Shown here: piece by piece, positions 7,678-23,420 of the stretch
Position numbering within the stretch: position 1 is the stretch's first letter
Layout of the letters: each line of letters begins with the position of its first letter
Origin: a virus
IMG/VR virus record: IMGVR_UViG_3300034062_000831
Location: 1-25,425 of that record
DNA length: 25,425 nt
Direction: 5' to 3' (one strand)
Program-made: the position numbers and the translations under genes
The notes under the pieces: model-generated
What the model was told of the DNA's origin: nothing
Databases searched by the model: none
Seen by the model: only the letters and a program-made list of their open reading frames with translations

Positions 7678-7916
7678 AGGAAAATCTCCAGTGCGAGCCA
7701 CGCCAGCCATCCGGGCGCAGCGGTTGCGATTGCGTCCCAGGGGTCAACCTGGCCTTCCTTGCGATACCATTGCTGCACCTCGTAGAGCACGCCCACAGCG
7801 GTCGTGGTGTAGGCCAGGCACGCGCCCAGGCCGAACCAGGCGTGGATCGTGAGCGCGCCCAGCGCGCAGGCGATGGCCAGGACGCCGAGGGCTAGGTGAA
7901 GCGCCTTGTCTTTCAC
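7674..7916 (-). CDS. Small multi-pass membrane protein (VanZ/YfiM-like pattern)
   Basis: An 80-residue protein with three hydrophobic segments (about 5-24, 26-45 and 62-79). The pattern DK-x2-H at residues 3-7, YE at 45-46 and DPWDAIAT at 58-65 recalls small bacterial membrane proteins of the VanZ/YfiM type (DKxxH ... E ... D..A). This is a resemblance of motif order, not a proven match. It lies between the tailspike and a tail-type beta protein with ATGA overlaps at both ends. It could be a third holin candidate, or an envelope protein acting with the tailspike, for example in superinfection exclusion or host surface change. Confidence 0.6.
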   Translation of the reverse strand: MKDKALHLALGVLAIACALGALTIHAWFGLGACLAYTTTAVGVLYEVQQWYRKEGQVDPWDAIATAAPGWLAWLALEIFL

Positions 7917-10036
7917 TTGGCCTCCAGCGCGGAAACCTTGGCTTCGAGTTCTTCGATGCGCTTTTGCGCTTCTTGCAGCACGGTCTGCGCGATCACCGCC
8001 ATGATGGATTGCTTCACTGCCTTGGTGGCCGTGCCGGTGGGCTGCTCCACTTCCACGGTTTCGCCGGCCTCATTCGTCTTGACGACCTTCTCATAGTCGG
8101 GCGTTTCGTAGACCAACCCAGGGGAAACCTGCTCGATCTGCTGGGCGATCACGCCGAGCATCTTCTGCGAGGGGTTCGTCTTGAACGCGAAGCTGACGAA
8201 CTCGTAGGCTTTGAATTTGTCCCAGTAGCTCGGAGCGGCCGCGATGTCCTGCTTCAGCTTGATGTCGGAAATGGCGCTGAACGTGCCAGTGCGGTTCTGG
8301 CATGTTCCATTCGACCAGACGATGAACTTCGACTCTGTCGCGTCCTCCGCAAACTGAAACCAGCTTGATGTGTCATTCGGCGACAGATTGGGGAAGGTCT
8401 GTCGATACAGACGCAACGTGCCGCTGGACCCTGTGTGGTAGTCACGCACGGCGGCGTTGCTGGCGTCGGCGGAATAGAACCCGTGGAAATTTCCGCTAGT
8501 CGTGACAGCAGACGGACCGGACGCCCGTAAATACGGTTGCAGGGCGAAGCCGTATACCCCATCCATCCCCATCTGTAGGAATGTCGCTGCTTTGGCGTTG
8601 CCAGGGTCGGCCATCACACTCAGCCCGCCGCCGGCATCAGTCGCAAAATCCACATTGGCGTTTGCGCTGTCAAACGCCAACGTCAGACCATTACGGTCCA
8701 ACTTGACGATGTTCCTGAAGTTGCCAGTAGCCGGCGGGGTGTAGACCGTGCCGAACGTGGCGACTCCGTTTGTCCTTCCGTTGTACAGCGTTTCCGTGCA
8801 GGCTTCGATGTAGCCGCCGAACATTTGCACGATCTTGGCAAACGTGCCTTGCGAACTGACGTAGACGCCGGTTGGGGTAGCCAGCGGTGCGGTGCCGCGC
8901 GCGTTGCTGGTCGAGTTGATCAGTTCGACGTTGGTGTTGTAGAAAAAGACATCTCCAACACCTTTGGCGTAAATGCCGACGTTTCCGTTGACGAACGAGC
9001 AGTTATAGAAACCACTGCGCGTGGTGTAGTTTTGGTTGGTGCCGCTCGGCGCGGTGTTGTAGTCGTAGGGGTACGAGAACACCAGGTGCTGCGTGTTGGT
9101 GTTGCCGTGATAGTTGTAGACGGAATGGTAGAAACACCCGGACTGCCGATTGGTGGTGTCCGTAACACCCGGCTGAAAGTCCATGCCGATAAAGCAGTTC
9201 TTAATCGTAACGGAATGGCTGAGGAAATACGACTGAGATACAGGAGACGTCAACGTGACATTTCCAACATTCTCCGGCCACACGCCAATGCCAGTGACGT
9301 CTGTCTTGCCGTTGCCGTCGATGCAGATTCCGCTGATCTCCACAAACGTCGTGGACACGCGGAAGACCGCCATGCTGTTTGAGCCGGCCTTGATGGTGAC
9401 CCCGCCATCTCCAACCAGGCGCAGATACGGCCGCAGGTCGTAGTTGTTGTCCCACGGGAACAGCACGCCATTGAGAATCGAATCCGAGCTCGTCGTGCCG
9501 TTGATCAGGTAGGTGCCATCGGGCACATAGACCGTACCGCGCCCGGCCGCGATGACAGCGTTGACTGCCGATTGGAATGCAGCGCGGCTGTCCGATGCGC
9601 CCGTCGGGTCAGCGCCAAAATCCAGCACGCTCACGGTGTCGCGCAGCTTGCTCTGCACCGTGCGCGATTGTGCGTTGGTTCCGGCCTGAAGAAACCCAAC
9701 CAGCGAAGAGCCGCTAGATGCGGCCAAGGTAGACAAAATAGATGCTAACGTAGCCTGATCGGGACCGTTCAATCCATCCACAGTCCACACCAACACATTC
9801 GACGCCGTGTAGAGCGCCAGCTTGTACTGCGACGCAGCCAACCACACGGACGCCTCGCCGCGAGCGTCCAGAACCACAGGATTGGCATTGGCAACGTTGC
9901 CCGTCGAGTCCGTGTAGCTTGCCAACGGCGTCGTCGTGCCGGCCGCGTAGGTATACAGCTTGCCTCCCGCCAACGGATTGCCGGCGCTGTCGAAGAACTG
10001 CAGTTTGGGCTGGGGGCTGATGCTGACTGCGGGCAT
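7913..10036 (-). CDS. Tailspike/tail fibre: particle-binding domain, pectate-lyase-like beta-helix, C-terminal S74 domain
   Basis: A 707-residue receptor-binding protein. Residues 1-90 form a beta-rich particle-binding domain seen at the start of many podovirus spikes (KLQFFDSAGNPLAGGKLYTY, SVWLAASQYKLALY). A short helical neck follows (about 91-132). A pectate-lyase-3 type opening (SVLDFGADPTGASDSRAAF, from 136) leads into a long Asn/Gly-rich beta-helix (about 136-480) that probably binds or cuts host surface polysaccharide; catalytic residues cannot be assigned by eye. The C-terminus is an S74 domain starting at SDIKLK (590-595, dyad S590/K595) and ending in a coiled coil (IEELEAKVSALEAK). 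This domain normally trimerises the spike and then cuts itself off. The ribosome site AAGGA overlaps the upstream stop. Confidence 0.88.
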   Translation of the reverse strand: MPAVSISPQPKLQFFDSAGNPLAGGKLYTYAAGTTTPLASYTDSTGNVANANPVVLDARGEASVWLAASQYKLALYTASNVLVWTVDGLNGPDQATLASILSTLAASSGSSLVGFLQAGTNAQSRTVQSKLRDTVSVLDFGADPTGASDSRAAFQSAVNAVIAAGRGTVYVPDGTYLINGTTSSDSILNGVLFPWDNNYDLRPYLRLVGDGGVTIKAGSNSMAVFRVSTTFVEISGICIDGNGKTDVTGIGVWPENVGNVTLTSPVSQSYFLSHSVTIKNCFIGMDFQPGVTDTTNRQSGCFYHSVYNYHGNTNTQHLVFSYPYDYNTAPSGTNQNYTTRSGFYNCSFVNGNVGIYAKGVGDVFFYNTNVELINSTSNARGTAPLATPTGVYVSSQGTFAKIVQMFGGYIEACTETLYNGRTNGVATFGTVYTPPATGNFRNIVKLDRNGLTLAFDSANANVDFATDAGGGLSVMADPGNAKAATFLQMGMDGVYGFALQPYLRASGPSAVTTSGNFHGFYSADASNAAVRDYHTGSSGTLRLYRQTFPNLSPNDTSSWFQFAEDATESKFIVWSNGTCQNRTGTFSAISDIKLKQDIAAAPSYWDKFKAYEFVSFAFKTNPSQKMLGVIAQQIEQVSPGLVYETPDYEKVVKTNEAGETVEVEQPTGTATKAVKQSIMAVIAQTVLQEAQKRIEELEAKVSALEAK

Positions 10037-13633: not shown

Positions 13634-14365
13634 TCAGTTCTCCTTGTGCAGATCGCCGCCCGGCTGCTGCCGCAGATAGATGTGGAAATTGCCCGGATAG
13701 TCTTTGCCGTCCGCGCCATGATGCGTCAGATTGAAATCCGGCACAAGCCAGATGTCACCGCCCAGCGCCTCCCAGCGCCGGCAGAAGGCGTAATCCTCGC
13801 CCCACCAGACGCCCTGATGCGCGCCGTGGTTGAACAGATCCACGCTCAGTCGGTATCGCTCGCCGTAACACAGCTCGGGGTGCGCCTGCATGAACCGATC
13901 CACGGCCTTCGTGGTGATCTTCAGGAACCCCGCAGGCACCAGACGGGCCTTGATTGCGCCGTCTTCGCGCACCACAGGATGCCCGGCGGCGTCGCTGTGG
14001 ATCGTGCCCATGTAGGACACATCATCGGCGTCGGGATACTTGAACCGATAGGTGCCAGCCACGACATCGCCTGGCGTGTTGATGAGCGTCAGCAGGTCGC
14101 GCGGCCGCCAGCTCAGGTCGTGGTCGATGAACACGATCACATCGGCCTTGGCGTCCAGCGCCTTGCGCAGCATCGTGGCTCGAGCGGCCGAGATGTACGG
14201 ATTGCCGACCTCGCTGACCATCGCGTCCACCCAACCTGCGGCCTGGATCAGCGGCACGGACGCCTCAAGGCTGTCCAAGCACTGCTGATAGGGTCGCTTG
14301 ACCGTTGGCAAGCAGAAAACGACCTTCTGAGGGCGGTTCGGCGCAGGGTCGTGAATCGTGCTCAC
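13634..14365 (-). CDS. Glycosyltransferase (GT-A fold, family 2-like)
   Basis: A 243-residue enzyme expected to transfer a sugar from a nucleotide-sugar donor. Residues 15-20 form the first strand (VVFCLP). The metal-binding DxD motif is D81-H82-D83 in VIVFIDHDLSW. A GTYRFKYPD segment (104-112) and PAGFLKI (144-150) match the middle of GT-A enzymes. WGEDYAFCRRW (188-198) holds the acidic pair expected near the catalytic base, and VPDFNLTHHG (208-217) ends the fold. There is no membrane segment, so it works in the cytoplasm. It overlaps the methyltransferase gene by four bases (ATGA), and the pair lies inside the head-gene run. Possible targets are virion proteins, host surface precursors or DNA. 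Confidence 0.82.
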   Translation of the reverse strand: MSTIHDPAPNRPQKVVFCLPTVKRPYQQCLDSLEASVPLIQAAGWVDAMVSEVGNPYISAARATMLRKALDAKADVIVFIDHDLSWRPRDLLTLINTPGDVVAGTYRFKYPDADDVSYMGTIHSDAAGHPVVREDGAIKARLVPAGFLKITTKAVDRFMQAHPELCYGERYRLSVDLFNHGAHQGVWWGEDYAFCRRWEALGGDIWLVPDFNLTHHGADGKDYPGNFHIYLRQQPGGDLHKEN

Positions 14366-14871
14366 TTGGACGCGACCGCCATGAGGTTGTAGGACGGCAT
14401 GCGACGCACCGTGACAGAGCCGAATCCGGCTTGCTCAAACTCTCGCTGTAGCGTAGCAGCGGTAAATCCGGTGTGGTGCGCCATGTAGGGTTGAATCTGG
14501 ACCGCATCGCGCTTGCCGTAGATCAGGTCCATGCCTGAAATCGGCCCGCACGGCGAGTCGAACAGAGTTTCTTCGTTTGCCTTGATGTCTTCCAGATCGG
14601 GCACGAAGACGATGGCGAACCCGCCATCCTTCAACACCCGCCGAAACTCTCCGAGCGCCGTCTGCACATCGTGCGGAAACAGATGCTCGAGAGCGTGTGA
14701 GCAGTACAGCACATCGAACTGGCCGATGTCGCCCATGTCCGTCATGCTGGCAACGATGTCAGGCCGAACGTCCTCGCAGATGTCCAGCCTGACTTCGTTG
14801 AACTTTCCAACAGCCCACTCTGGCATAGAGTCGCCGCCACAGCCAACGTGCAGCAGCGACCCCATGCTCAT
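14362..14871 (-). CDS. SAM-dependent methyltransferase (class I, type 11-like)
   Basis: A 169-residue Rossmann-fold enzyme. The SAM-binding motif I is LLHVGCGGD (6-14), followed by an acidic residue after strand 2 (RLDI, D30), the strand-4 motif FDVLYCSHALEH (52-63) and VLKDGGFAIVFVP (79-91). The chain begins very close to motif I, so the N-terminal cap found in many family members is missing or short. HTGFTAATLQREFEQAGF (132-150) is the usual helix near the end. The substrate is unknown: no DNA-methyltransferase motif (DPPY/NPPY) is present, so a small molecule, sugar or protein is more likely than DNA. It is coupled to the glycosyltransferase by an ATGA overlap. Confidence 0.85.
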   Translation of the reverse strand: MSMGSLLHVGCGGDSMPEWAVGKFNEVRLDICEDVRPDIVASMTDMGDIGQFDVLYCSHALEHLFPHDVQTALGEFRRVLKDGGFAIVFVPDLEDIKANEETLFDSPCGPISGMDLIYGKRDAVQIQPYMAHHTGFTAATLQREFEQAGFGSVTVRRMPSYNLMAVASK

Positions 14872-14892: not shown

Positions 14893-15150
14893 TTAGGCCG
14901 CGCCCTTCCACAGGCCCAGGCCCGTCAGGCAGGCTGCCACTTCGGCGTTAAACGCCGCTTGGTTGCTCACCAGGGACGCCCAGCTCGTCGCCGAGACAAG
15001 GGACGCGGCTTGCACGGCTGCCGCGCGTTGCGTGGCCGGCGTGGTGCCGTAGAAACCCATCTTGCCCGTCGCGGTGCCCAGCAGGACGCCATCGGCGGCG
15101 TTGCCTTGGAACAGGTAAAGCTCGGTGGTGGTGCTATTCGGTGCGGCCAT
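14893..15150 (-). CDS. Head-fibre-like small protein A (paralogue of 21906-22169)
   Basis: An 85-residue protein next to the coat gene, preceded by a strong ribosome site (AGGAGG, 9 bases from the ATG). The start is polar (residues 1-20). A GKMGFYGTTPATQ segment follows (29-41); GFxGxTPxxQ is common in small phage head-fibre or capsid-associated proteins. The last 45 residues (QRAAAVQAASLVSATSW ... GLGLWKGAA) are helical and identical to those of the protein at 21906-22169. It probably attaches to or protrudes from the capsid, with the shared part used for assembly and the different front part exposed. The evidence is position and motif, not a firm family match. Confidence 0.7.
   Translation of the reverse strand: MAAPNSTTTELYLFQGNAADGVLLGTATGKMGFYGTTPATQRAAAVQAASLVSATSWASLVSNQAAFNAEVAACLTGLGLWKGAA
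14896..15030 (-). repeat. Shared 45-codon segment, copy A
   Basis: Codes for the same 45 residues as 21909-22043. By hand count about 34 of the 45 codons differ and every difference is silent, so it is a repeat at the protein level but not at the DNA level. Confidence 0.9.
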
Positions 15151-15176
15151 CTTGTGGTCCTCCTATGTCAGTTGCG

Positions 15177-16427
15177 TCAGGCGGCCACGCGGCAGGCAAG
15201 CTCGGGATAGAGCGGTGCCCAGCCGTAGAGCACATCCAGACGGGTCGGGATGCTGTCGTTGTTGATCGTGTACTGGCGCACGACGCGGATCGAGAGGCCC
15301 AGCTCCTTGTCCGACGCGCGGCCGGCGAAGTGGACGCCGTCGGGCATCTCGAGATCGGCCATCGCCAGCGTGAACGCGTTGCGGTGCATCACGATGTTCT
15401 GCGGCGACACGGTGCCCACAGCCGAGGTGCCGATGCTGAACGGCGTCACGGTCGCGGTGCCCGAAGTCGTCGGAATCGTCACGTTCTGGAACTGGCCCGC
15501 CGTGATGATCGCAGGCGACACGGACACGGACAGCGCGCCCGAGCCGGTAACCGTCGAGTTCACCACGAAGTTGCGCAGCCGGTTCGACCCGTAGGCCTGA
15601 CGGTTCTGCGGGTTCACCGCGAACACGTTGGCGATGGTGATGACATCACCCGCGCGCAGCGTCACCGCAGCGCCGGCCGTGATCGTGATCGTGGACGACG
15701 AGGCCCAGCCCGACGAAATGCCGATGCTCGTCGTGCTGGCGGTCAGCGTCGAGGCGGTCGTGGTCCAGGCGCCGAAGGTCTGCGCCCCGACGTTCTGATC
15801 CATCTTCCACTTCATGCCGGCGCTGTCCACGCCCATCAGGCCCTTCTCGAACTGGTCGGAAACCTGCTTGGCGGGGTTGAAAAGGCCCTTCAGGCTGTCC
15901 ACGATGGTCGCCGAGGTGAACGGCTCGACCAGGCACGAACGCCGGCCGTCGCGCGGGGCGCCTTCGGCGTCCAGATACGCCTGCGCCGTCAGATACGTCA
16001 GCAGCGAGGTCGGCGGGGTGCCGGCCGTGCCCACGATGTTGGCGGTCTTGAGGCGGGCCATGCCCAGGCCGTCGTAGTCGATCTTGTTGGCGATCGCGGC
16101 CACGGCGGGCTTGAGCACGCGGTCGCTGAACATGTCCAGCGACAGGGCCAGATCCTGCGTGGTGAACTGCGTGTCAACGTGGAACTGGGTGTCCAGCGTC
16201 ACGGGCACGGACGTTTCGTTGAAGTCCTCGACGTTCAGGTTCGGCCCGGTCGTGCCGATGAAGCGGCCCGGACGGCGAACGTTGACGGTCGCGCCGATCT
16301 TGGCGCCGACGACGGCGAACTGGTCGTCGTAGTTGCGGTCGACCTCACCCGTGAAGGTGAGTTCGTTCTCGAGGACCATCAGGGCCTCGTTGGTGATCTT
16401 GCTGATGGTGAGCAAGGTGTTGCTCAT
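15177..16427 (-). CDS. Major capsid (coat) protein, P22 gp5-like
   Basis: A 416-residue HK97-fold coat protein, close to the 430 residues of P22 gp5. The family N-terminus (NTLLTISKITNEALMVLEN) and the next region (FAVVGAKIGATVNVRRPGRF, 37-56) are clear, as are FTTQDLALSLDMFSDRVL (88-105) and the C-terminal GLSIRVVRQYTINNDSIPTR stretch. Residues about 220-330 are a Ser/Thr-rich beta segment in the place of the P22 insertion domain, which in P22 stabilises the shell. The ribosome site AAAGGAA lies shortly before the ATG. The 50-base gap to the scaffold gene has no clear terminator. It is probably the most expressed gene here, helped by the promoter at 17483-17510. Confidence 0.93.
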   Translation of the reverse strand: MSNTLLTISKITNEALMVLENELTFTGEVDRNYDDQFAVVGAKIGATVNVRRPGRFIGTTGPNLNVEDFNETSVPVTLDTQFHVDTQFTTQDLALSLDMFSDRVLKPAVAAIANKIDYDGLGMARLKTANIVGTAGTPPTSLLTYLTAQAYLDAEGAPRDGRRSCLVEPFTSATIVDSLKGLFNPAKQVSDQFEKGLMGVDSAGMKWKMDQNVGAQTFGAWTTTASTLTASTTSIGISSGWASSSTITITAGAAVTLRAGDVITIANVFAVNPQNRQAYGSNRLRNFVVNSTVTGSGALSVSVSPAIITAGQFQNVTIPTTSGTATVTPFSIGTSAVGTVSPQNIVMHRNAFTLAMADLEMPDGVHFAGRASDKELGLSIRVVRQYTINNDSIPTRLDVLYGWAPLYPELACRVAA

Positions 16428-16477
16428 GGCGATTCCTTTCGGTGTGTTGTGCGAGTCTCAGCCTGCGTGGCGTCGAC

Positions 16478-17461
16478 TCACTTGATCTTGCCGGCCCTGC
16501 GCATCTGCTTCCACTGCTGGTAACTGCCTCGGAATTCTCCGCTGCTGTCCACCTCTGCTGCGGCGCCTGCTGCGACGGCCTTGATGGGGGTGATCGGGGC
16601 GGCTGCGCGGGGCCTGAGCACAGCGGCTACAGGTGCTGACGCAGGCGTCTCGGGGGATTTGCCGGCCTCGAACCGACCTTCCAGCTTGCCGATCTCGCGC
16701 AGTTGCGACGCAACGGACATGCTGGCGAGTTTCTTGCCCAGTTCCGGGTTCTCTGCCAGGTGGTACAGAATCCTCGGCCCGACCTCGGACTCGAGGATGG
16801 CGTCGCGCACGGCATCAGTGACTTGTACCTCGGATGAGGTCACCATGTCATCGAAGTCGGGCATCTCCGCCTTAGCCTTCGTCACACGGTCAGCCCAGGC
16901 AGTGATGACCTGCTGGCGCGTTTCGTTGGCCTTACGCTCGGCTTCCTCGGCCTTGACGCGCTTGACGGCTTGGTCGGATGACCATTTCGCCAGCGCCTTG
17001 GCATACTCGAAAGCGTCGCTGTAATCACCCGGCTGCGGCTCGGCGTCTGCCTGCGCGACCTGCGCGGGCTGGGCCGGCTCTGCGGCGGGCGTCTGTCCCT
17101 GCTGCAGAGCCTGGAGGCGGGCCTCGAGCTCCCTGACGCGAGCGGCCTCGGCTTCGGCTTTCGCCTCGGCTTCCTTGCGCGCACGGGTCAGGTCGCTGAA
17201 CCTGCGTTCCAGTTTCGGATTGGGTTTCTTCTCGGGTTCGGGCTGCTGCCCCGCTTCGGTCTGCTCGCCTTCGGGTTCACTCTGGGCCTGCGGCTCGGCT
17301 GCCGGTTCCGGGGTCGGATCGGCGGCGGGTGGCGGCTCAGCTAAACCCATACGGCGAAGCTGGAATTCGGCCAGATTGTCGCTCGTCACGACATGCTGGG
17401 CCTGAGGACGGTCTGCGGTGGCTGCTTCTGTCATCGGAAATTCCGAAGGGTTTTCCGGCAT
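16478..17461 (-). CDS. Scaffolding protein (P22 gp8-like)
   Basis: A 327-residue, very acidic and Pro/Ala/Glu-rich protein (P22 gp8 has 303). Residues 40-80 are a disordered EP-rich stretch, 83-122 a coiled coil (ARKEAEAKAEAEAARVRELE), and 160-235 helical. The last 16 residues are a basic helix (YQQWKQMRRAGKIK), as in P22 gp8, where a basic C-terminal helix-turn-helix binds coat. It lies between portal and coat, the usual place. The start is uncertain: the first ATG (17461) is preceded by only a weak CAGGA that is too close, and a second ATG nine codons later has CGGAA at better spacing. Confidence 0.85.
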   Translation of the reverse strand: MPENPSEFPMTEAATADRPQAQHVVTSDNLAEFQLRRMGLAEPPPAADPTPEPAAEPQAQSEPEGEQTEAGQQPEPEKKPNPKLERRFSDLTRARKEAEAKAEAEAARVRELEARLQALQQGQTPAAEPAQPAQVAQADAEPQPGDYSDAFEYAKALAKWSSDQAVKRVKAEEAERKANETRQQVITAWADRVTKAKAEMPDFDDMVTSSEVQVTDAVRDAILESEVGPRILYHLAENPELGKKLASMSVASQLREIGKLEGRFEAGKSPETPASAPVAAVLRPRAAAPITPIKAVAAGAAAEVDSSGEFRGSYQQWKQMRRAGKIK

Positions 17462-17482
17462 ATCCTGCCGTGGGATTTCAAT

Positions 17483-17510
17483 ATGGTACGACAGATTCTT
17501 TCACTGTCAA
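17483..17510 (-). promoter_or_regulatory. Candidate sigma70-type promoter before the scaffold gene
   Basis: On the minus strand a perfect -35 TTGACA (17505-17510) is followed after 16 bases by TACCAT (17483-17488), a 4 of 6 match to -10. The 50-base gap between portal and scaffold is much richer in A/T than its neighbours. Transcription would start near 17476, about 15 bases before the first scaffold ATG. GACAG and CTGTC form a 5-bp inverted repeat that overlaps the -35 box and could be an operator or hairpin. Predicted by eye. Confidence 0.45.
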
Positions 17511-17511
17511 T

Positions 17512-19647
17512 TTACTGGCGAATGATGAACGGATTGCCGGTATCGCCGACATCCTGCTCGGCATACACGGCAGACGCCGCGAGCTCGATGTCTCTGCGCT
17601 GAATCTCTGCCCGCAGCGCGCTCAGATCGACGCCGGCGAGGATCAGCTTGGTCATCGCATCCAGTTCGGCCTTGTTCTGACCGGCGATGGCTTGCACCGC
17701 AGTCTGGTTGGCCCGCGCCTCGTTGATCGTGTCGGTGTTGTGCGCCCTGCTGGTGAGCTGCATCAGCATGCGGCGGTCAGCGCCCTCTTGCTTGATGCCC
17801 TCGACATCCTGCCGGGTCTTGATCGCCATCTGCATGGCCTGCAGCTGCTGCTGCATGTCCTCAATCATCGCCTTCGACTGCGCCAGTTGCATCTGCACCT
17901 GCGGCGGGACATCGGATTTCTCGTCAATCTGCGCCAGCGGGTTCACGGCAGCCAGGCGGTCGGCGATGACATCGGCGCCGGGGAAGTCCATGTTGCGGAA
18001 CACCAGATCGCCAGCGGCCTGGAACAGTTGCTCGTTCGCGCCCAGCAGCGGCAGCATGGCTTCCACAGCCTGCATCCGCTTGCTCTGGTAGCCCGGTCCG
18101 GTGTCCATCACCACGTCGAACTCGCCCACGGTGACATCGTTGACGACCTTGAACGCGCCCATCGCGTCCTGCACGCGCTCATTGATGGTCACCAGATCGG
18201 GCTGGCCGTCGGCGCCGATGATGCGCATCACGCGCTGCTCGCTGTACACGTAGGGCACGAGGTCCAGAATGATCTTGCCCGTGTGCCGGATGCTGCGCGT
18301 CAGGTTGTCGTAGAAATGGAAGTTCGTCATGTCGATCTGCTGCTGCTGACCGGACAACGCCTTCCCTGAGATATTCCCCGTGGGCAGTTGCGACGGGTCC
18401 ATGATGCCGATGACCGTCTGCAGGTCGAACGCGACCGTCTCTGCTGCAGCCAGCACGCCCTGCGGTGGTGGCTCGGGCTGCAGGCGGGTCGGGGGCGGCG
18501 CCTGGCGGCCCTCGATGTCGGTCTGCTTGTAGCGCAGCACCGGGGCCGAGCGCGTGTTCGCCTGCGCCCACTCGGTTTCATGACCCTCGTCCTGGCCTTC
18601 GGCGAGCAACCACTTGGCCTTCGGCGCAAGCGCGACCGATTCGGTCATGCTGGTGCGCCAGAAGTTGTACATCCGCTGCGGGTCTTTGGCGTAGCGCACC
18701 AAGCCGATCTTCTTGCGCTTGTCCTCGACCGTCAGGCGCATGCCGTAGACGGGCACGACGGGGATGTAACGCCCGTCGAGATCGCGCTCCTCGAGCACCT
18801 GCAGCGCGGTGAGCTTGCACCACTTGAGCTGCTTCTTGACCGACGGCCGGCGCGCGACAATGTACACGCCGTCCTGCAGCATGACCTCCTCGCTCGGGGC
18901 CTCGCTGGCGAACACGCGCGTGCCATCGGACAGCAGCAGCAGCTGATCGGCCTTGCGCTCAAAGTGGAAGTATTCGGCCACGCGGATGTCCTCGCGCATG
19001 ATCCACTCGGCGTTCGCATCTCCCGTGCTGCGGGCCAGGAATCCGGTGCCGTCATCCGCGTCGGGGTACATCGCGCGGAACTCGGTCTTCGACATCACGC
19101 TGGTCACCAGGCACTGCTCGGCGTCGCTGCCGTCAGGCGCGGTGCTGTGCGGGTCGAAATAGACGGTGAACGGGTTGTCGATGGGCTGGATGAAGATTTC
19201 CTGCTCAAACGAGTCCTCGCGCACATAGTCCGTCACGATGCGCCAGTAACCCCAGCCCATCCGCACGGCGTACTCGAAGGCGTGGTCGTAGGCCGCGTCG
19301 GCGTTGCTGTTGACCTCGATGTGCCGCGTGATGCCCTCAAGCACCTGGGCCACCTTCGCGTCGGCCGCCGTGTTCGTCGGATGAACCTTGATGCGCGGGC
19401 GCTGCTGGCGCTGTTGGTTGCAGACCTGGCGCACGTAGGCATCGACCTTGTTGATCGTCAGGCACGGCCTGGCCTCGAGGTTGCGCGAGTTCTGGAGCTC
19501 CACCGGCCACTGGTCGCCGGCTGAGAATTTCAGATCCTCAAGCGCCTCGCGGCGGTTCGCGCTGTCGGCTTCGGCCACCGTGCGCAGCAGTTTCATTGCG
19601 CCCGCGATGCGCGGGTCGTCGGACATGTCGGCGGTCTGGTAGGCCAT
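17512..19647 (-). CDS. Portal protein (P22 gp1-like)
   Basis: A 711-residue portal (P22 gp1 has 725) that forms the twelve-fold ring at one head vertex through which DNA enters and leaves. The N-terminal part matches the family: ALEDLKFSAGDQWP (36-49), RPCLTINKVDAYVRQVCNQQRQ (60-81, shown in parts), then FEYAVRMGWGYWRI and IDNPFTVYFDPHS. The middle has NISGKALSGQQQQIDMTN, the region by the DNA tunnel. The C-terminal 150 residues are Gln/Ala-rich helices (QVQMQLAQSKAMIEDMQQQL), which could form the internal barrel known from P22. A good CAGGAG precedes the ATG, and it starts 33 bases after the large terminase stop. Confidence 0.92.
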   Translation of the reverse strand: MAYQTADMSDDPRIAGAMKLLRTVAEADSANRREALEDLKFSAGDQWPVELQNSRNLEARPCLTINKVDAYVRQVCNQQRQQRPRIKVHPTNTAADAKVAQVLEGITRHIEVNSNADAAYDHAFEYAVRMGWGYWRIVTDYVREDSFEQEIFIQPIDNPFTVYFDPHSTAPDGSDAEQCLVTSVMSKTEFRAMYPDADDGTGFLARSTGDANAEWIMREDIRVAEYFHFERKADQLLLLSDGTRVFASEAPSEEVMLQDGVYIVARRPSVKKQLKWCKLTALQVLEERDLDGRYIPVVPVYGMRLTVEDKRKKIGLVRYAKDPQRMYNFWRTSMTESVALAPKAKWLLAEGQDEGHETEWAQANTRSAPVLRYKQTDIEGRQAPPPTRLQPEPPPQGVLAAAETVAFDLQTVIGIMDPSQLPTGNISGKALSGQQQQIDMTNFHFYDNLTRSIRHTGKIILDLVPYVYSEQRVMRIIGADGQPDLVTINERVQDAMGAFKVVNDVTVGEFDVVMDTGPGYQSKRMQAVEAMLPLLGANEQLFQAAGDLVFRNMDFPGADVIADRLAAVNPLAQIDEKSDVPPQVQMQLAQSKAMIEDMQQQLQAMQMAIKTRQDVEGIKQEGADRRMLMQLTSRAHNTDTINEARANQTAVQAIAGQNKAELDAMTKLILAGVDLSALRAEIQRRDIELAASAVYAEQDVGDTGNPFIIRQ

Positions 19648-19680
19648 GTCAGGCTCCTGTGTGTGGTGCGGCGGGCCGGA

Positions 19681-20958
19681 TCAGCCCATCCAGGCGTGCG
19701 AGTCGGCCCGCACGAATTGCGGCGTCGGCACGCGGCGCTGCGCTTTGCGCGGGTCGCGGATCATGAGGCCGATGTAGCGAAACGCATCGGCGCCGTGGCT
19801 GTACTGGTCGTGCAGCGGATTGCGGCTGAACTGGCCCGTGTCGGGGTCCACCTCGTAGCGGTAGTGGCGCAAGCACTGCAAGCCCTCGCCGGCGTTCTCG
19901 CGGTCGAACCAGCAGTTCGGGAAGATCGTCCGCGCTGCGTTGATGCTGTCGGTAACGGGAACCTTGGGCAGAATCGCCACGCGATGCCCAGCTGCGCGCA
20001 CAATCTCCTCGATGCTGCGCCCGTTGGCGGCCAGCGTCTTGTTCTGCGCGTCGTGCGGCAGGTGCATCGTGTCGTAGACGTAGCCGAACTTCTGCAGCTC
20101 GGCCAGGTAGTGCGTGATCGTTTTCTGGCTGTCCTCAATGTACCGGATCAGCCGCGTTTCCATGCCGATGAACTGCACGAACCAGATCGCCGTCTGGTCG
20201 CTCCAGCCGAGATCCCACACCGCATGCACCGGCTTAGCGGGGTCATACGCCACGCGCCCGATGCGGCCTTCGATGTCTGCGGCCTCGAGCTCGCGGGCAA
20301 AGATCGCGCCGTCCACGGTTTGCCGGCACACGCCCTCCCAGACGGTCGCGTAGGCCGCAGGGTCGCGGGCTTTCAGCGAGTCTTTCTCGGCACGCAGCGT
20401 CTCGGGAAACCACGGGTTGTCGGACCAGTTGATCTTCTGCACCACCGCGCCAGGCGGCGGGCTGACGACAAACCGCTGGTAGGTCTCGTCCTGCTCGAGC
20501 TCGGGGTTGAACGACACCCAGATTTCCGAGCCCTCTTTGCGGATGGTCGGGATCAGCACGTTCCAGCTCAGCCGGCTCACCGACTGCGCTTCCTCGACCC
20601 AACAGATGTCGACGCCCTCAAACGACTTGATGTTCGATATGTTGTTCTTGAGGCCGACGAAGAAGAACTCGCTACCGTTGCGCCCACGGATGCTGCTCTG
20701 CGTGATCTCGTAGAGACCCATCATGCCAAGCGCGTCGATCTGATCGACCAGCAGCTTGTGAACCGAGTCGCGGATGCTCGTCTGGAACTCCCGCGCGCAC
20801 AGGATGCGCATCGGCGCCTGGGCGGCCTTGATCAGCAAGGCCCGAGCAATGCCCCAGGACTTTGCGCCGCCTCGCCCGCCATACAGCACGCGATAGCGCG
20901 ACCGGGGCGGGTCGAACAGGCAGGACAGCTTTTCAGGGAAGACGGCTTGGGCTTCCAT
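19681..20958 (-). CDS. terL: Terminase large subunit (ATPase and nuclease)
   Basis: A 425-residue packaging motor. The ATPase has Walker A GGRGGAKS (27-34), Walker B with the catalytic acids in ICWVEEAQ (E122/E123) and the coupling motif SFNP (149-152). The RNase-H-like nuclease has its first Asp in WDLGWSDQ (D249), then PHDAQ (D303) and DQYSHGADAFRY (D391). The opening and length fit the PBSX/phage-35 type rather than P22 gp2. It cuts concatemeric DNA and pumps it through the portal. A GAGG precedes the ATG, which lies 26 bases inside the small subunit gene. Confidence 0.95.
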   Translation of the reverse strand: MEAQAVFPEKLSCLFDPPRSRYRVLYGGRGGAKSWGIARALLIKAAQAPMRILCAREFQTSIRDSVHKLLVDQIDALGMMGLYEITQSSIRGRNGSEFFFVGLKNNISNIKSFEGVDICWVEEAQSVSRLSWNVLIPTIRKEGSEIWVSFNPELEQDETYQRFVVSPPPGAVVQKINWSDNPWFPETLRAEKDSLKARDPAAYATVWEGVCRQTVDGAIFARELEAADIEGRIGRVAYDPAKPVHAVWDLGWSDQTAIWFVQFIGMETRLIRYIEDSQKTITHYLAELQKFGYVYDTMHLPHDAQNKTLAANGRSIEEIVRAAGHRVAILPKVPVTDSINAARTIFPNCWFDRENAGEGLQCLRHYRYEVDPDTGQFSRNPLHDQYSHGADAFRYIGLMIRDPRKAQRRVPTPQFVRADSHAWMG

Positions 20959-21262
20959 CGGCGACCTCGGGCGCGGCCGCCGGCGCGGCGCTGGGCGTCG
21001 AGCCTGGCCGGATGAACTCCACGCGGATGCCGGCCAGCAGGGGCGACCCGTCTTCGTTGGCGACGGTCATGGCTTGTACGGATTTGCCGTCCACGCGGTC
21101 AATGAGCTCCTTGATCGCCCACGCCTCGCCTTGCTCGGCCTTGCTCACCAGTTGCTCGGCGATCTGCCGCAGGCGATGCGGTTCCTGCGTGAGCACCAAG
21201 CGCAGCTTGTCGTAAAACATCCGCTGCTTGGCGCCATTGGCATTTCCGAAAGGTGCTCCCAT
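20933..21262 (-). CDS. terS: Terminase small subunit candidate
   Basis: A 109-residue protein whose 3' end overlaps the large terminase by 26 bases. It starts GAPFGNANGAK and has a helical body (KLRLVLTQEPHRLRQIAEQL, then AEQGEAWAIKELIDRVDGK). The tail is Pro/Ala-rich. The AIKELIDRVDGK segment is frequent in small DNA-binding phage proteins located just before terL. The role, choosing the DNA to be packaged, is inferred from position and helix content. The nearest ribosome-site-like AAGGA lies about 14 bases before the ATG, inside a perfect hairpin (21271-21286), so translation may depend on RNA folding or coupling. Confidence 0.75.
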   Translation of the reverse strand: MGAPFGNANGAKQRMFYDKLRLVLTQEPHRLRQIAEQLVSKAEQGEAWAIKELIDRVDGKSVQAMTVANEDGSPLLAGIRVEFIRPGSTPSAAPAAAPEVADGSPSRLP

Positions 21263-21270
21263 TGTGCAAT

Positions 21271-21286
21271 GCGCAAATCCTTGCGC
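21271..21286 (-). promoter_or_regulatory. Perfect inverted repeat before the terminase small subunit
   Basis: GCGCAA and TTGCGC form a 6-bp perfect stem around a 4-base loop. On the minus-strand RNA the AAGGA that would bind the ribosome is partly in the stem and loop, 9 bases before the terS ATG from the end of the stem. It could gate terS translation or be a protein-binding site on DNA. There is no U-tract, so it is not a typical terminator. Confidence 0.45.
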
Positions 21287-21289
21287 CGT

Positions 21290-21436
21290 TTACTTTTTCT
21301 TCGCCGGCTTCGCTGCTGCCGCCCGTTTCGTCGCGTAAGCGATGGCCACGGCCTGCTTCGGCGGCTTGCCGTGGGCAATTTCGGTCTTCACGTTTTTCTT
21401 GAACGCGGCTTCGGACTTCGACTTCACCAGCGGCAT
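21290..21436 (-). CDS. Small basic phage protein, 48 residues
   Basis: This short gene codes for a lysine-rich protein that begins MPLVKSKSEAAF, continues with KTEIAHGKPPKQAVAIAYA and ends in a run of Ala, Pro and Lys. Short proteins with the KPPKQAVAIAY pattern are common near phage packaging genes. Their role is unknown; nucleic-acid binding is suggested by the charge. AGAGGA lies a few bases before the ATG. It fills the space between terS and the next small gene with close spacing on both sides. Confidence 0.75.
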   Translation of the reverse strand: MPLVKSKSEAAFKKNVKTEIAHGKPPKQAVAIAYATKRAAAAKPAKKK

Positions 21437-21447
21437 CTCGGTTCCTC

Positions 21448-21621
21448 TCAGCGTTTCTTGGCGGTCTTCGCCGACTCGCGGAACGCCTCGGCAGTCGGTG
21501 CGCCCTTGGTGCCAGGTTTGCGCATGCGCTCGGGCGTCTTGCCGGCAGCCTTCTGCGCTTCGATGCGCTCGCGCTTGGCGTGGATGTTGGCGTAGAGGCC
21601 GGGAGGGGTTTTCAGCGGCAT
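21448..21621 (-). CDS. Small basic phage protein, 57 residues
   Basis: This short gene codes for MPLKTPPGLYANIHAKRERI, then a hinge with GKTPERMRKPGTKGAPTAEA and a basic end (KTAKKR). The GLYANIHAKRERI ... RKPGxKGAPTA pattern is typical of a widespread small phage protein of unknown function found beside packaging genes. CGGAG is present before the ATG. The order and spacing with the 48- and 85-residue neighbours suggest they are made together. The charge and size suit a nucleic-acid-associated or internal head protein, but this is a guess. Confidence 0.78.
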   Translation of the reverse strand: MPLKTPPGLYANIHAKRERIEAQKAAGKTPERMRKPGTKGAPTAEAFRESAKTAKKR

Positions 21622-21651
21622 GTCGACTCCGATGTTGGCTCTAGCGTGCAG

Positions 21652-21909
21652 TCAGCACTTCCAACGCTTGAGCGCCGCCTTGGCGCGTTCGCCGTTCTCG
21701 GCCTTGGCCGCGACGGCACCCATACGGGCGCAGAAACTGGCTTTGCGCCCCTTATCGGCCTCGGTCTTGGGGTTCGGCGCCGGCGGCTTGAGGTTACTGC
21801 CGGTGGCCGCGTTGTACTTGGCGCGACCCTTGGCGGTCAGCCCAGCGCCTTGGCTGGCCGGCAGTTTCTCACCGCGACCGACGCTCAGGCTGACCGATTT
21901 CTTGGTCAC
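21652..21909 (-). CDS. Small basic protein with GLTAKGRAKYN motif (DUF6321-like)
   Basis: An 85-residue protein started by GTG at 21909, fixed by a GTGA overlap with the head-fibre-like gene upstream; a longer in-frame version would overlap that gene by 40 bases. It has GRGEKLPASQGAGLTAKGRA (residues about 11-30), KYNAATGSNLKPPAP, then PKTEADKGRKASFCARMG and the ending ALKRWKC. The GLTAKGRAKYN...TGSNLK...SFCARM...ALKRWKC series is a recurring phage family, which I believe is DUF6321. No function is known. It is basic, with two cysteines (C72-type and C-terminal). Confidence 0.72.
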   Translation of the reverse strand: MTKKSVSLSVGRGEKLPASQGAGLTAKGRAKYNAATGSNLKPPAPNPKTEADKGRKASFCARMGAVAAKAENGERAKAALKRWKC

Positions 21910-22169
21910 GCCGCACCCTTCCAGAGCCCGAGGCCGGTGAGACATGCGGCGACCTCGGCATTGAACGCGGCCTGGTTCGACACCAAGCTGGCCCAGCTGG
22001 TGGCGCTGACGAGGCTGGCCGCCTGGACTGCGGCGGCTCGCTGAACCACGGGCGTTTTGCCGTAAAAGCCGACCGTGCCGGCAGGCGAGGAGGTGGCAGC
22101 TGCGCCAATGATGGCGCCGTCGAGCTCGGGGTCGCTGTATGCGACGCCCACTGCGATGCTGTTGGTCAT
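21906..22169 (-). CDS. Head-fibre-like small protein B (paralogue of 14893-15150)
   Basis: An 87-residue protein, with AGAGGA before the ATG. Its first 30 residues (VGVAYSDPELDGAIIGAA) differ from protein A. It has the same kind of GFYGKTPVVQ element (34-43), and from the Gln at 43 its last 45 residues are identical to those of protein A. It lies upstream of the terminase, away from the coat gene, among accessory genes. Both proteins probably dock on the same partner through the shared C-terminus and show different N-termini. It could be an alternative head fibre, or an assembly competitor of protein A. Confidence 0.7.
   Translation of the reverse strand: MTNSIAVGVAYSDPELDGAIIGAAATSSPAGTVGFYGKTPVVQRAAAVQAASLVSATSWASLVSNQAAFNAEVAACLTGLGLWKGAA
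21909..22043 (-). repeat. Shared 45-codon segment, copy B
   Basis: Codes for the same 45 residues as 14896-15030 through mostly different synonymous codons, including four serine codons switched between the AGC and TCN sets. Confidence 0.9.
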
Positions 22170-22203
22170 GGTGTGTTCCTCTCAGGTGATCGTTTTCGCC
22201 GGA

Positions 22204-22494
22204 TTATGCCGCTTTCGCCTGCTCGCTGTCGAATTCCACGACAGCGCAGACATCGGCCTCTTGGATGATCTGGTAGTCCTGGCCGTCGAACCGCTGCGTC
22301 GGCCAGTTGAGGTAATCGCCGTTTCCGTACTTGACGAAATCGCCCACCTTGGCCTGCTCCACCAGCGGCCCCACGGCGACGATGGTGCCCTCGTTGAACG
22401 GCTCGCGGTTCACCACATGGATGATGTCGCTCAGGTGTCGAGCTCGAGGTTTGACCACGATGCGGTCGCGCAGAGGTCGGATCGGACAGGTCAT
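22204..22494 (-). CDS. GroES-like co-chaperonin
   Basis: A 96-residue protein, close to E. coli GroES (97). The family start IRPLRDRIVVKP (5-16) is clear, then EGTIVAVGP (35-43), VGDFVKYGNG (50-59) and the end YQIIQEADVCAVVE (74-87). GroES caps GroEL and helps fold substrates; its mobile loop carries a hydrophobic IVL that touches GroEL. Here the loop region reads SDIIHVVN (22-29), so a hydrophobic patch is kept but the usual Gly-rich GGIVLTG is not. P22 coat folding depends on host GroEL/ES, so the likely client is the coat protein. Its ATG overlaps the upstream stop (ATGA). Confidence 0.83.
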   Translation of the reverse strand: MTCPIRPLRDRIVVKPRARHLSDIIHVVNREPFNEGTIVAVGPLVEQAKVGDFVKYGNGDYLNWPTQRFDGQDYQIIQEADVCAVVEFDSEQAKAA

Positions 22495-22694
22495 GCTGGT
22501 TTGGTCTTTGGCGGCCTGCCGCGTCGTTTGGGCGGCGGCTCAGCCTGCGGAGTGGTCAGGCTCATGGTGGGGAGTTCGCTCGGGCGATACTCGCCGCACC
22601 AATCGGTGTGGTGCTTGGTCACGATCTGCGGATACCGCCGGCACTGGCCCAGCACAGGGTCTGGGGTCCACCATCGGCAGGAACCGCAGTTCAT
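22491..22694 (-). CDS. Small zinc-binding-like protein with AT-hook-like tail
   Basis: A 67-residue protein. C3-x2-C6-x11-C18-x14-C33 (CGSCRWW, GQCRRYP, DWCGEY) is a small four-Cys metal site. The C-terminus has KRRGRPPKTK (56-65), whose core RGRP is the AT-hook that binds the minor groove of A/T-rich DNA. The start at 22694 is inferred from the first ATG before the Cys site; the ribosome site is weak, and the frame is open further upstream. A role in DNA binding or regulation is likely, but the partner is unknown. It is coupled to the GroES-like gene by an ATGA overlap. Confidence 0.65.
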   Translation of the reverse strand: MNCGSCRWWTPDPVLGQCRRYPQIVTKHHTDWCGEYRPSELPTMSLTTPQAEPPPKRRGRPPKTKPA

Positions 22695-22714
22695 CGCAAC
22701 GGCGCCGCAGTAGG

Positions 22715-22927
22715 TCAGCCAGGCTGGTGCGATTTGCGCCCGTGGACGTACTGCACGCCGCTGTGGCTGCCGCCCGCGAATCGGTTGTCGGGGCCGCAGC
22801 GGTCCATGACGCCCATGCCGACGCCGGCCTTGGTGGCCCCGGAGCGTCCAGCGGTTGCTTGCGCCGGAATCTTGGCCTGGACGCCGTAGCCGGCGGGTTG
22901 CGTGTAGGGGTTGCCCTTGGATTTCAT
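22715..22927 (-). CDS. Small Gly-rich phage protein, unknown
   Basis: A 70-residue protein of low complexity, rich in Gly, Ala and Gln (KSKGNPYTQPAGYGVQAKIP, then GPDNRFAGGSHSGVQY). It has no membrane segment or catalytic motif. A very good AAGGAG precedes the ATG, so it is probably well translated. Such proteins occur in phage accessory regions near the head genes without known function. The gap to the zinc-binding gene is 20 bases. Confidence 0.65.
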   Translation of the reverse strand: MKSKGNPYTQPAGYGVQAKIPAQATAGRSGATKAGVGMGVMDRCGPDNRFAGGSHSGVQYVHGRKSHQPG

Positions 22928-22977
22928 CGTGTCGCTCCTTGCGAATGCGGTCAGAAAACGCGCCGAGTGTAGCGCGG

Positions 22978-23319
22978 TCAGTTGAGAAACCGCAGCTTAT
23001 ACAGCGTGGAGTCGATGAGCGCTGCAATCTCATCGACCAGATTCTGCAGTTCAGTATCCTGCGGCAAATGCTCGCGGGATTCCGAAACGAAGGATTGCAT
23101 TTTCTTCAGATATTCGATGGGGTCACCCGCGCCAAACCGCAGTTTCTCATGCGCCCCCATATACGCCTCGGCCAGCGCATCGGTTTTCTCCACGATGCCA
23201 TCGTAATACTCGCCCAGCGCGGTGTGCTTGGAGAAACTGTCGGTTTCCCAATGCATCAGGTGCGCATCGACGCTCGAGCGCAGCAGGAACATGACGAAGG
23301 TGGCGACGTCGTGGGTCAT
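22978..23319 (-). CDS. Dps/ferritin-like helical protein (DUF5856-like)
   Basis: A 113-residue, mostly helical protein. HLMHWETDSFSKHTALGEYY (20-39) then DALAEAYMG (47-55) recalls Dps proteins, which oxidise iron and bind DNA. In E. coli Dps the ferroxidase ligands are H51, H63, D78 and E82; here H20, H32, D47 and E51 have the same 12-15-4 spacing, although the HW pair is H23-W24, so either H20 or H23 could be the first ligand. It is shorter than Dps (about 167) and lacks the last helices, so it may form a different oligomer. I believe phage DUF5856 is this type. The start is the first ATG in a typical position; no clear ribosome site is seen. It is the first gene after the control region. 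Confidence 0.62.
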   Translation of the reverse strand: MTHDVATFVMFLLRSSVDAHLMHWETDSFSKHTALGEYYDGIVEKTDALAEAYMGAHEKLRFGAGDPIEYLKKMQSFVSESREHLPQDTELQNLVDEIAALIDSTLYKLRFLN

Positions 23320-23349
23320 CGGAGGCGGCCAGCGGGCAGCGTAGGTGGG

Positions 23350-23379
23350 CTTATAGCACGGCCCGGTGGGGGGATGCAA
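23350..23379 (-). promoter_or_regulatory. Candidate promoter for the leftward accessory/late operon
   Basis: On the minus strand TTGCAT (23374-23379) and TATAAG (23350-23355, 5 of 6 to -10) are 18 bases apart. The start would be near 23343, about 24 bases before the ATG of the Dps-like gene. The -35 match is only 3 of 6, so a phage activator may be needed. Four TGCA motifs (23375-23405), two of them in an exact tandem of ATGCACG (23394-23407), lie at and just upstream of the -35 and could be operator sites. Confidence 0.35.
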
Positions 23380-23420
23380 GAGGTGTTGCAAAAATGCACG
23401 ATGCACGGATAAGTTAGTGA

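Follow-up and report, generated by a model that had tools for sequence, protein, structure and literature searches.

Paired small proteins of podoviruses with P22-type coats tend to match in their C-terminal modules as protein, not as DNA

The head fibre or decoration proteins of phages are exemplified by gp8.5 of phi29. In tail fibres with a cognate chaperone, such as gp38 of T4 or Tfa of Mu and lambda, a C-terminal module swaps between phages together with a downstream gene that acts on it. Mycobacteriophages such as Maravista encode putative glycosyltransferases, which have been suggested to glycosylate the capsid (PMC11256854). Paralogs can also evolve in concert by gene conversion, as described for yeast histones (PMC4700949) and in prokaryotes (PMC6053082). 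Here we describe two small phage genes that touch on each of these systems.

Two small genes in a podovirus genome fragment

The window analyzed here is the whole 25,425-nucleotide stretch of IMG/VR record IMGVR_UViG_3300034062_000831. It is a fragment of a podovirus with P22-type coat, scaffold, portal, and terminase genes, and it contains matches to PF11651 and to phrog_283, 8865, 156, and 3717. Judged by their sequences, its genes A and B (Table 1) encode two paralogous small proteins that differ in their N-termini and share a C-terminal module some 45 residues long, the W-module. The N-terminus of A is of the S type (TTELYLFQGNAADGVLLGT) and is followed by a GFYG-TP-Q motif and then by the module, whereas that of B is of the V type (IAVGVAYSDPELDGAIIG). 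The final 45 residues of A and B are identical (QRAAAVQAASLVSATSWASLVSNQAAFNAEVAACLTGLGLWKGAA), as the initial annotation had reported; the interval it gave for the pair, 14896 to 22043, runs from inside A to inside B, and the full extents of the genes are those in Table 1.

Table 1. Positions of A, B, their modules, and neighboring genes in the window
Feature	Position	Strand	Size or match	Remarks
Gene A	14893-15150	-	85 aa	Directly downstream of the coat gene
W-module of A (45 codons)	14896-15030	-		Stop codon at 14893-14895
Gene B	21906-22169	-	87 aa	Between the GroES-like gene and the small-terminase region
W-module of B (45 codons)	21909-22043	-		Stop codon at 21906-21908
P22-type coat protein	15177-16427	-	PF11651 (2.2e-29), phrog_283	Directly upstream of A
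SAM-dependent methyltransferase (MT)	14362-14871	-	Pfam Methyltransf_11 (5.8e-10)	Directly downstream of A
GT-like gene	13634-14365	-	PHROG 1574, function unknown (4.5e-16); motifs	Accompanies the W-module
GroES-like gene	22204-22494	-	PF00166 (5.6e-7)	Directly upstream of B; neighbor outside the module

The order of coat gene, small gene or genes, MT (where present), GT-like gene, and neck genes is kept in relatives, and of the 186 family loci whose upstream sequence is long enough, 178 have the coat gene upstream of the small gene. Where relatives carry two copies, these are mostly in tandem; some 7 kb separates them in the window and in the sister virus L006, and B of the window lies at about that distance from A and the GT-like gene. 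MT separates A from the GT-like gene in the window, L018, and L019 and is missing from the sisters L006 (site at about 17290-17410) and L023. The variant of A (Leu60 versus Ala60) accompanies the presence of MT, not the coat variant. In L035 (1711-3446), L036, L050, and L052 the order is coat, small gene, GT-like gene, small gene, and (MT), which places a modifying-enzyme gene between the two small genes. Two GT-like genes lie near each other in G004 (21955-23380), the genome of L200, which is another matched pair.

Two further features of the window deserve mention. The gene following B (DUF6321, 21652-21945) has its listed start 40 nt inside the 3' end of B; since its domain match does not begin until residue 33, it might instead start at a later GTG just past the stop codon of B. 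At 7913-10036 the window encodes a tail-spike-like protein, which combines a pectate-lyase-like domain with an S74 endosialidase chaperone domain at its C-terminus.

Neither A nor B, nor the relatives that were searched as well, matched a family in Pfam, PHROG, NCBIfam, or PDB sequences. The label "head-fibre" in the initial annotation found no backing in profile matches of A or B, and the only match to a "head fiber" PHROG came from the relative L127 and was not significant (E = 0.77). Searches of GenBank phages by tblastn found the family in two Manatee Spring records only, a scan of bacterial genomes found it in two metagenome-assembled contigs only, and literature searches returned nothing on this small-protein family. 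From their gene position, A and B are probably virion surface proteins. The GT-like protein likewise lacked a sequence match in Pfam or PDB. Its motifs DhD and GEDYaF and a late histidine, conserved over 65 sequences, suggest a putative GT-A-type glycosyltransferase.

Matching of paired C-termini in protein and in DNA

Between the modules of A and B, 34 of the 45 codons differ through 40 nucleotide changes (5, 4, and 31 at codon positions 1, 2, and 3, respectively). Four serines differ as TCN and AGC and one leucine as CTG and TTG. The hand count of about 34 silent codon differences and four serine switches was therefore accurate, and the codon alignment proposed with it showed synonymous change to be saturated (Nei-Gojobori pS 0.86). 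Independent draws from the phage's own codon usage predicted 24.4 ± 3.1 codon differences as opposed to the 34 seen (P ~0.0013). However, in 39 nonredundant two-copy genomes the summed codon differences were 865, against 892 expected (mean z -0.26). The most extreme genome of this set is the window (z 3.0), followed by its sister L006, which shares the same history. Thus, the excess in the window is by itself only suggestive.

Scans of IMG/VR gave 239 nonredundant family loci, 78 of which contained two copies, so the pair does recur, a point the initial annotation had left to be checked. In the 39 genomes tested, C-terminal identity was 0.756 within a genome and 0.536 with shuffled partners (0 of 20,000 permutations), a comparison that leaves phylogeny unmodelled and in which independent type changes are fewer than genomes. 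The synonymous difference at identical residues was 0.628 within and 0.649 between the same genomes, which is not significant. A set of 31 genomes gave similar values (C-terminal match of 0.80 versus 0.61; synonymous difference of 0.615 versus 0.629), the largest type, QAAS, taken alone gave a match of 0.873 versus 0.787, and 10 thinned genomes gave p = 0.001. Paired C-termini are thus matched in amino acids without homogenization of their DNA. The homogenized paralogous DNA expected of concerted evolution by gene conversion was not found, since synonymous difference is equal within and between genomes. Matching of the C-termini, but not of their codons, supports the strong selection on a shared interface that had been proposed from A and B alone.

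Rare residues common to both partners numbered 68, against 3.9 expected, and were mostly written with different codons. Among the independent matched cases, both copies of L313 carry QANSVV and LNALG, and both copies of L144 carry AGCG. Matching peaks over residues 4 to 34 of the 45. C-terminal domains of several types are exchanged between genomes. In about one-quarter of the two-copy genomes the two modules are clearly unlike; C-terminal matching is therefore a strong tendency rather than a rule. A group of genomes (L103, L104, L158, L165, and L328) combines mismatched C-termini with one GT-like gene. The clearly unlike C-termini of L103, L104, L158, L160, L165, L166, and L327-L329 offer a natural control for the partner need of each module.

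The sister virus L006 allows a comparison at closer range. Its B gene is the ortholog of B in the window, the module dS is about 0.5 and thus unsaturated, and four module residues differ. At all four, B of the window carries the residue of A in another codon (GTC/GTG, CTC/CTT, TTG/CTG, and TGT/TGC), which excludes gene conversion at these sites; the ancestral state was assigned by parsimony. Among the genomes compared, Leu20 of the module is confined to the two copies of the window. B shows more synonymous change between the window and L006 than several neighboring genes do, so either allele may have come by recombination. Recent gene conversion was considered and ruled out by these other-codon matches together with the equal synonymous difference within and between genomes, and the saturated codons agree with the initial view that the pair is no recent duplication.

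Genes that vary with the module

In 24 genomes, the C-terminus of the V copy correlated with that of its partner (r 0.77), as opposed to 0.02 with its own N-terminus and 0.06 with the coat; a further module-coat correlation was 0.01. The V N-terminus, in contrast, tracked the coat (r 0.76), which makes the N-terminus a better candidate for a capsid anchor than the C-terminus. The D N-terminus mainly followed the coat lineage (0.8 with scaffold and 0.89 with portal), with some link to the GT-like gene (0.33). Among other genes, the module was linked to MT and to the GT-like gene, and no link was found to scaffold, portal, or neck genes. Given the coat and both N-termini, the correlation of the V C-terminus with the GT-like gene was 0.49. 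The link between the V and D C-termini was 0.58 given the coat, the GT-like gene, and the N-termini. The pair link exceeds the GT link and still stood at 0.63 after control for the GT-like gene.

The GT link was absent in the first 15 genomes of the QAAS type and emerged only in a larger set. Because a few clades had produced the first signal, which that subset did not reproduce, the test was redone on 90 thinned genomes. The partial correlation of the module was 0.81 with the GT-like gene given the coat and 0.02 with the coat given the GT-like gene. In the enlarged set, the GT link was 0.82 in single-copy genomes and 0.49 within the QAAS type, where a minority signal of the coat given the GT-like gene (0.16) was also seen. 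Coat docking, which the initial annotation had offered as the reason for the match, is at odds with these values, and the near-zero module-coat correlations rule out coat tracking as the main cause.

A GT-like gene lies within 5 kb at 81 of 83 W-module loci, as opposed to 1 of 12 loci with a plain C-terminus and 15 of 45 others. The W-module loci without a nearby copy are L003, a B-only contig ending at the coat gene, and L295, whose GT match lies elsewhere. In the GenBank record MW202520, the coat is 80% identical to that of the window and the N-terminus of A is similar, but the C-terminus is plain, and neither a second copy nor a GT-like gene was found. MW202573 and L103 have the C-terminus and the GT-like gene in common, with coats that are 68% different. 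The W-module behaves as an exchangeable unit, decoupled from its own N-terminus (in the V type) and from the coat.

A common partner, its alternatives, and known systems

The recurrence of the pairing across relatives and its association with the GT-like gene suggest a common partner for both proteins. The enzyme encoded by that gene covaries with the module across unrelated coats, which makes it the best candidate. That one partner, most likely this enzyme, serves both A and B is our leading but tentative reading. We put forward with greater reserve its specific form, in which one co-encoded glycosyltransferase would serve two virion proteins through a swappable C-terminal recognition module, a concerted evolution of protein without exchange of DNA. 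The module would then be a docking or acceptor domain for the enzyme and, where present, for MT. Both proteins would have to stay readable by the same enzyme, and their modules would coevolve as protein while the codons drift freely. A Ser/Thr-rich segment within the matched region, SLVSATSWASLVS, is a plausible candidate for the acceptor site. The GT-like gene alone need not be the cause, since the paired C-termini are linked more strongly to each other than to that gene, and their link persists once the gene is controlled for.

For the same reason, the common-enzyme reading could hold together with its main rival, in which A and B assemble through a C-terminal helix, as mixed coiled-coil trimers or as neighboring subunits, with core residues matched between the chains. 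We consider this assembly somewhat unlikely. It would account for the V-D link that persists given the coat, the GT-like gene, and the N-termini, and for Leu20 being confined to the two copies of the window. AlphaFold monomer models place a C-terminal helix at about residues 56 to 80, with low confidence (pLDDT 58); positions 20, 24, 27, 31, 34, 38, and 41 of the 45-mer would fit an a/d heptad, and two of the four concordant changes between the window and its sister (20 and 34) fall on these positions. However, the same module is retained in many one-copy genomes, about one-quarter of the two-copy genomes are mismatched, and the GT link is left unexplained.

Less likely again is a history in which a linked block of C-terminus, MT, and GT-like gene moves between phages, an old conversion having equalized the modules before purifying selection froze the protein and the codons became saturated. 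The genes are adjacent, purifying selection is strong, and the D N-terminus is partly GT-linked; as MT and the GT-like gene physically adjoin the D copy or A, part of the correlation could stem from the transfer of a cassette. Against this, the D N-terminus lies between both modules and mainly follows the coat lineage, and B of the window is far from A and from the GT-like gene. Nor can an old conversion explain the four matches of B to A, which use different codons although B of the window and B of L006 are unsaturated.

Docking of both proteins at the same capsid site, with a module that follows the coat protein, is improbable. The family genes do directly follow the coat gene, a minority coat signal exists within the QAAS type, and the coats of the window and L006 differ, as do their A and B, with all coat differences confined to residues 231-325, which we take to be the region of the P22 I-domain. 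However, L018 combines a window-type A with an L006-type coat, the coat is tracked by the V N-terminus, and the correlations of the C-terminus with the coat are close to zero. Selection on codon divergence itself to block recombination between the copies, as proposed in the initial annotation, would fit the excess seen in the window. It is very improbable and as a general rule close to refuted, since across the family the codon difference equals rather than exceeds random expectation, including in tandem copies, which would need the protection most; it could hold only for the lineage of the window and L006.

The pair provides a clean natural case of two paralogs that are alike in protein and not in DNA across dozens of viruses, and through it the question of coevolution or gene conversion becomes measurable. 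Should the GT link be causal, it would reveal the acceptor domain of a phage protein-glycosylation cassette not described before, and with it a widespread family of small proteins that Pfam, PHROGs, and NCBIfam lack.

Compared with the systems introduced above, the family resembles head fibre and decoration proteins, among them PHROG 6994 ("head fiber protein"), in its small size, in a gene next to that of the coat, and in a short C-terminus that forms a helix. It differs from them in the lack of a significant match and in that two paralogs carry an exchangeable C-terminal module accompanying a GT-like gene. With gp38 of T4 and Tfa of Mu and lambda, the locus shares a swappable C-terminal module linked to a downstream gene; here, however, a GT-like enzyme is the candidate partner, the module is kept alike in two separate proteins, and no tail fibre is involved. 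As in Maravista, a phage gene for a putative glycosyltransferase suggests virion glycosylation, but that virus is of another type, its abstract describes no paired substrates, and the substrates here are proposed from covariation only (PMC11256854). Finally, as under concerted evolution by gene conversion, paralogs in one genome are more alike than expected; there the sequence is homogenized, whereas here the codons are saturated and the protein alone is matched (PMC4700949, PMC6053082).
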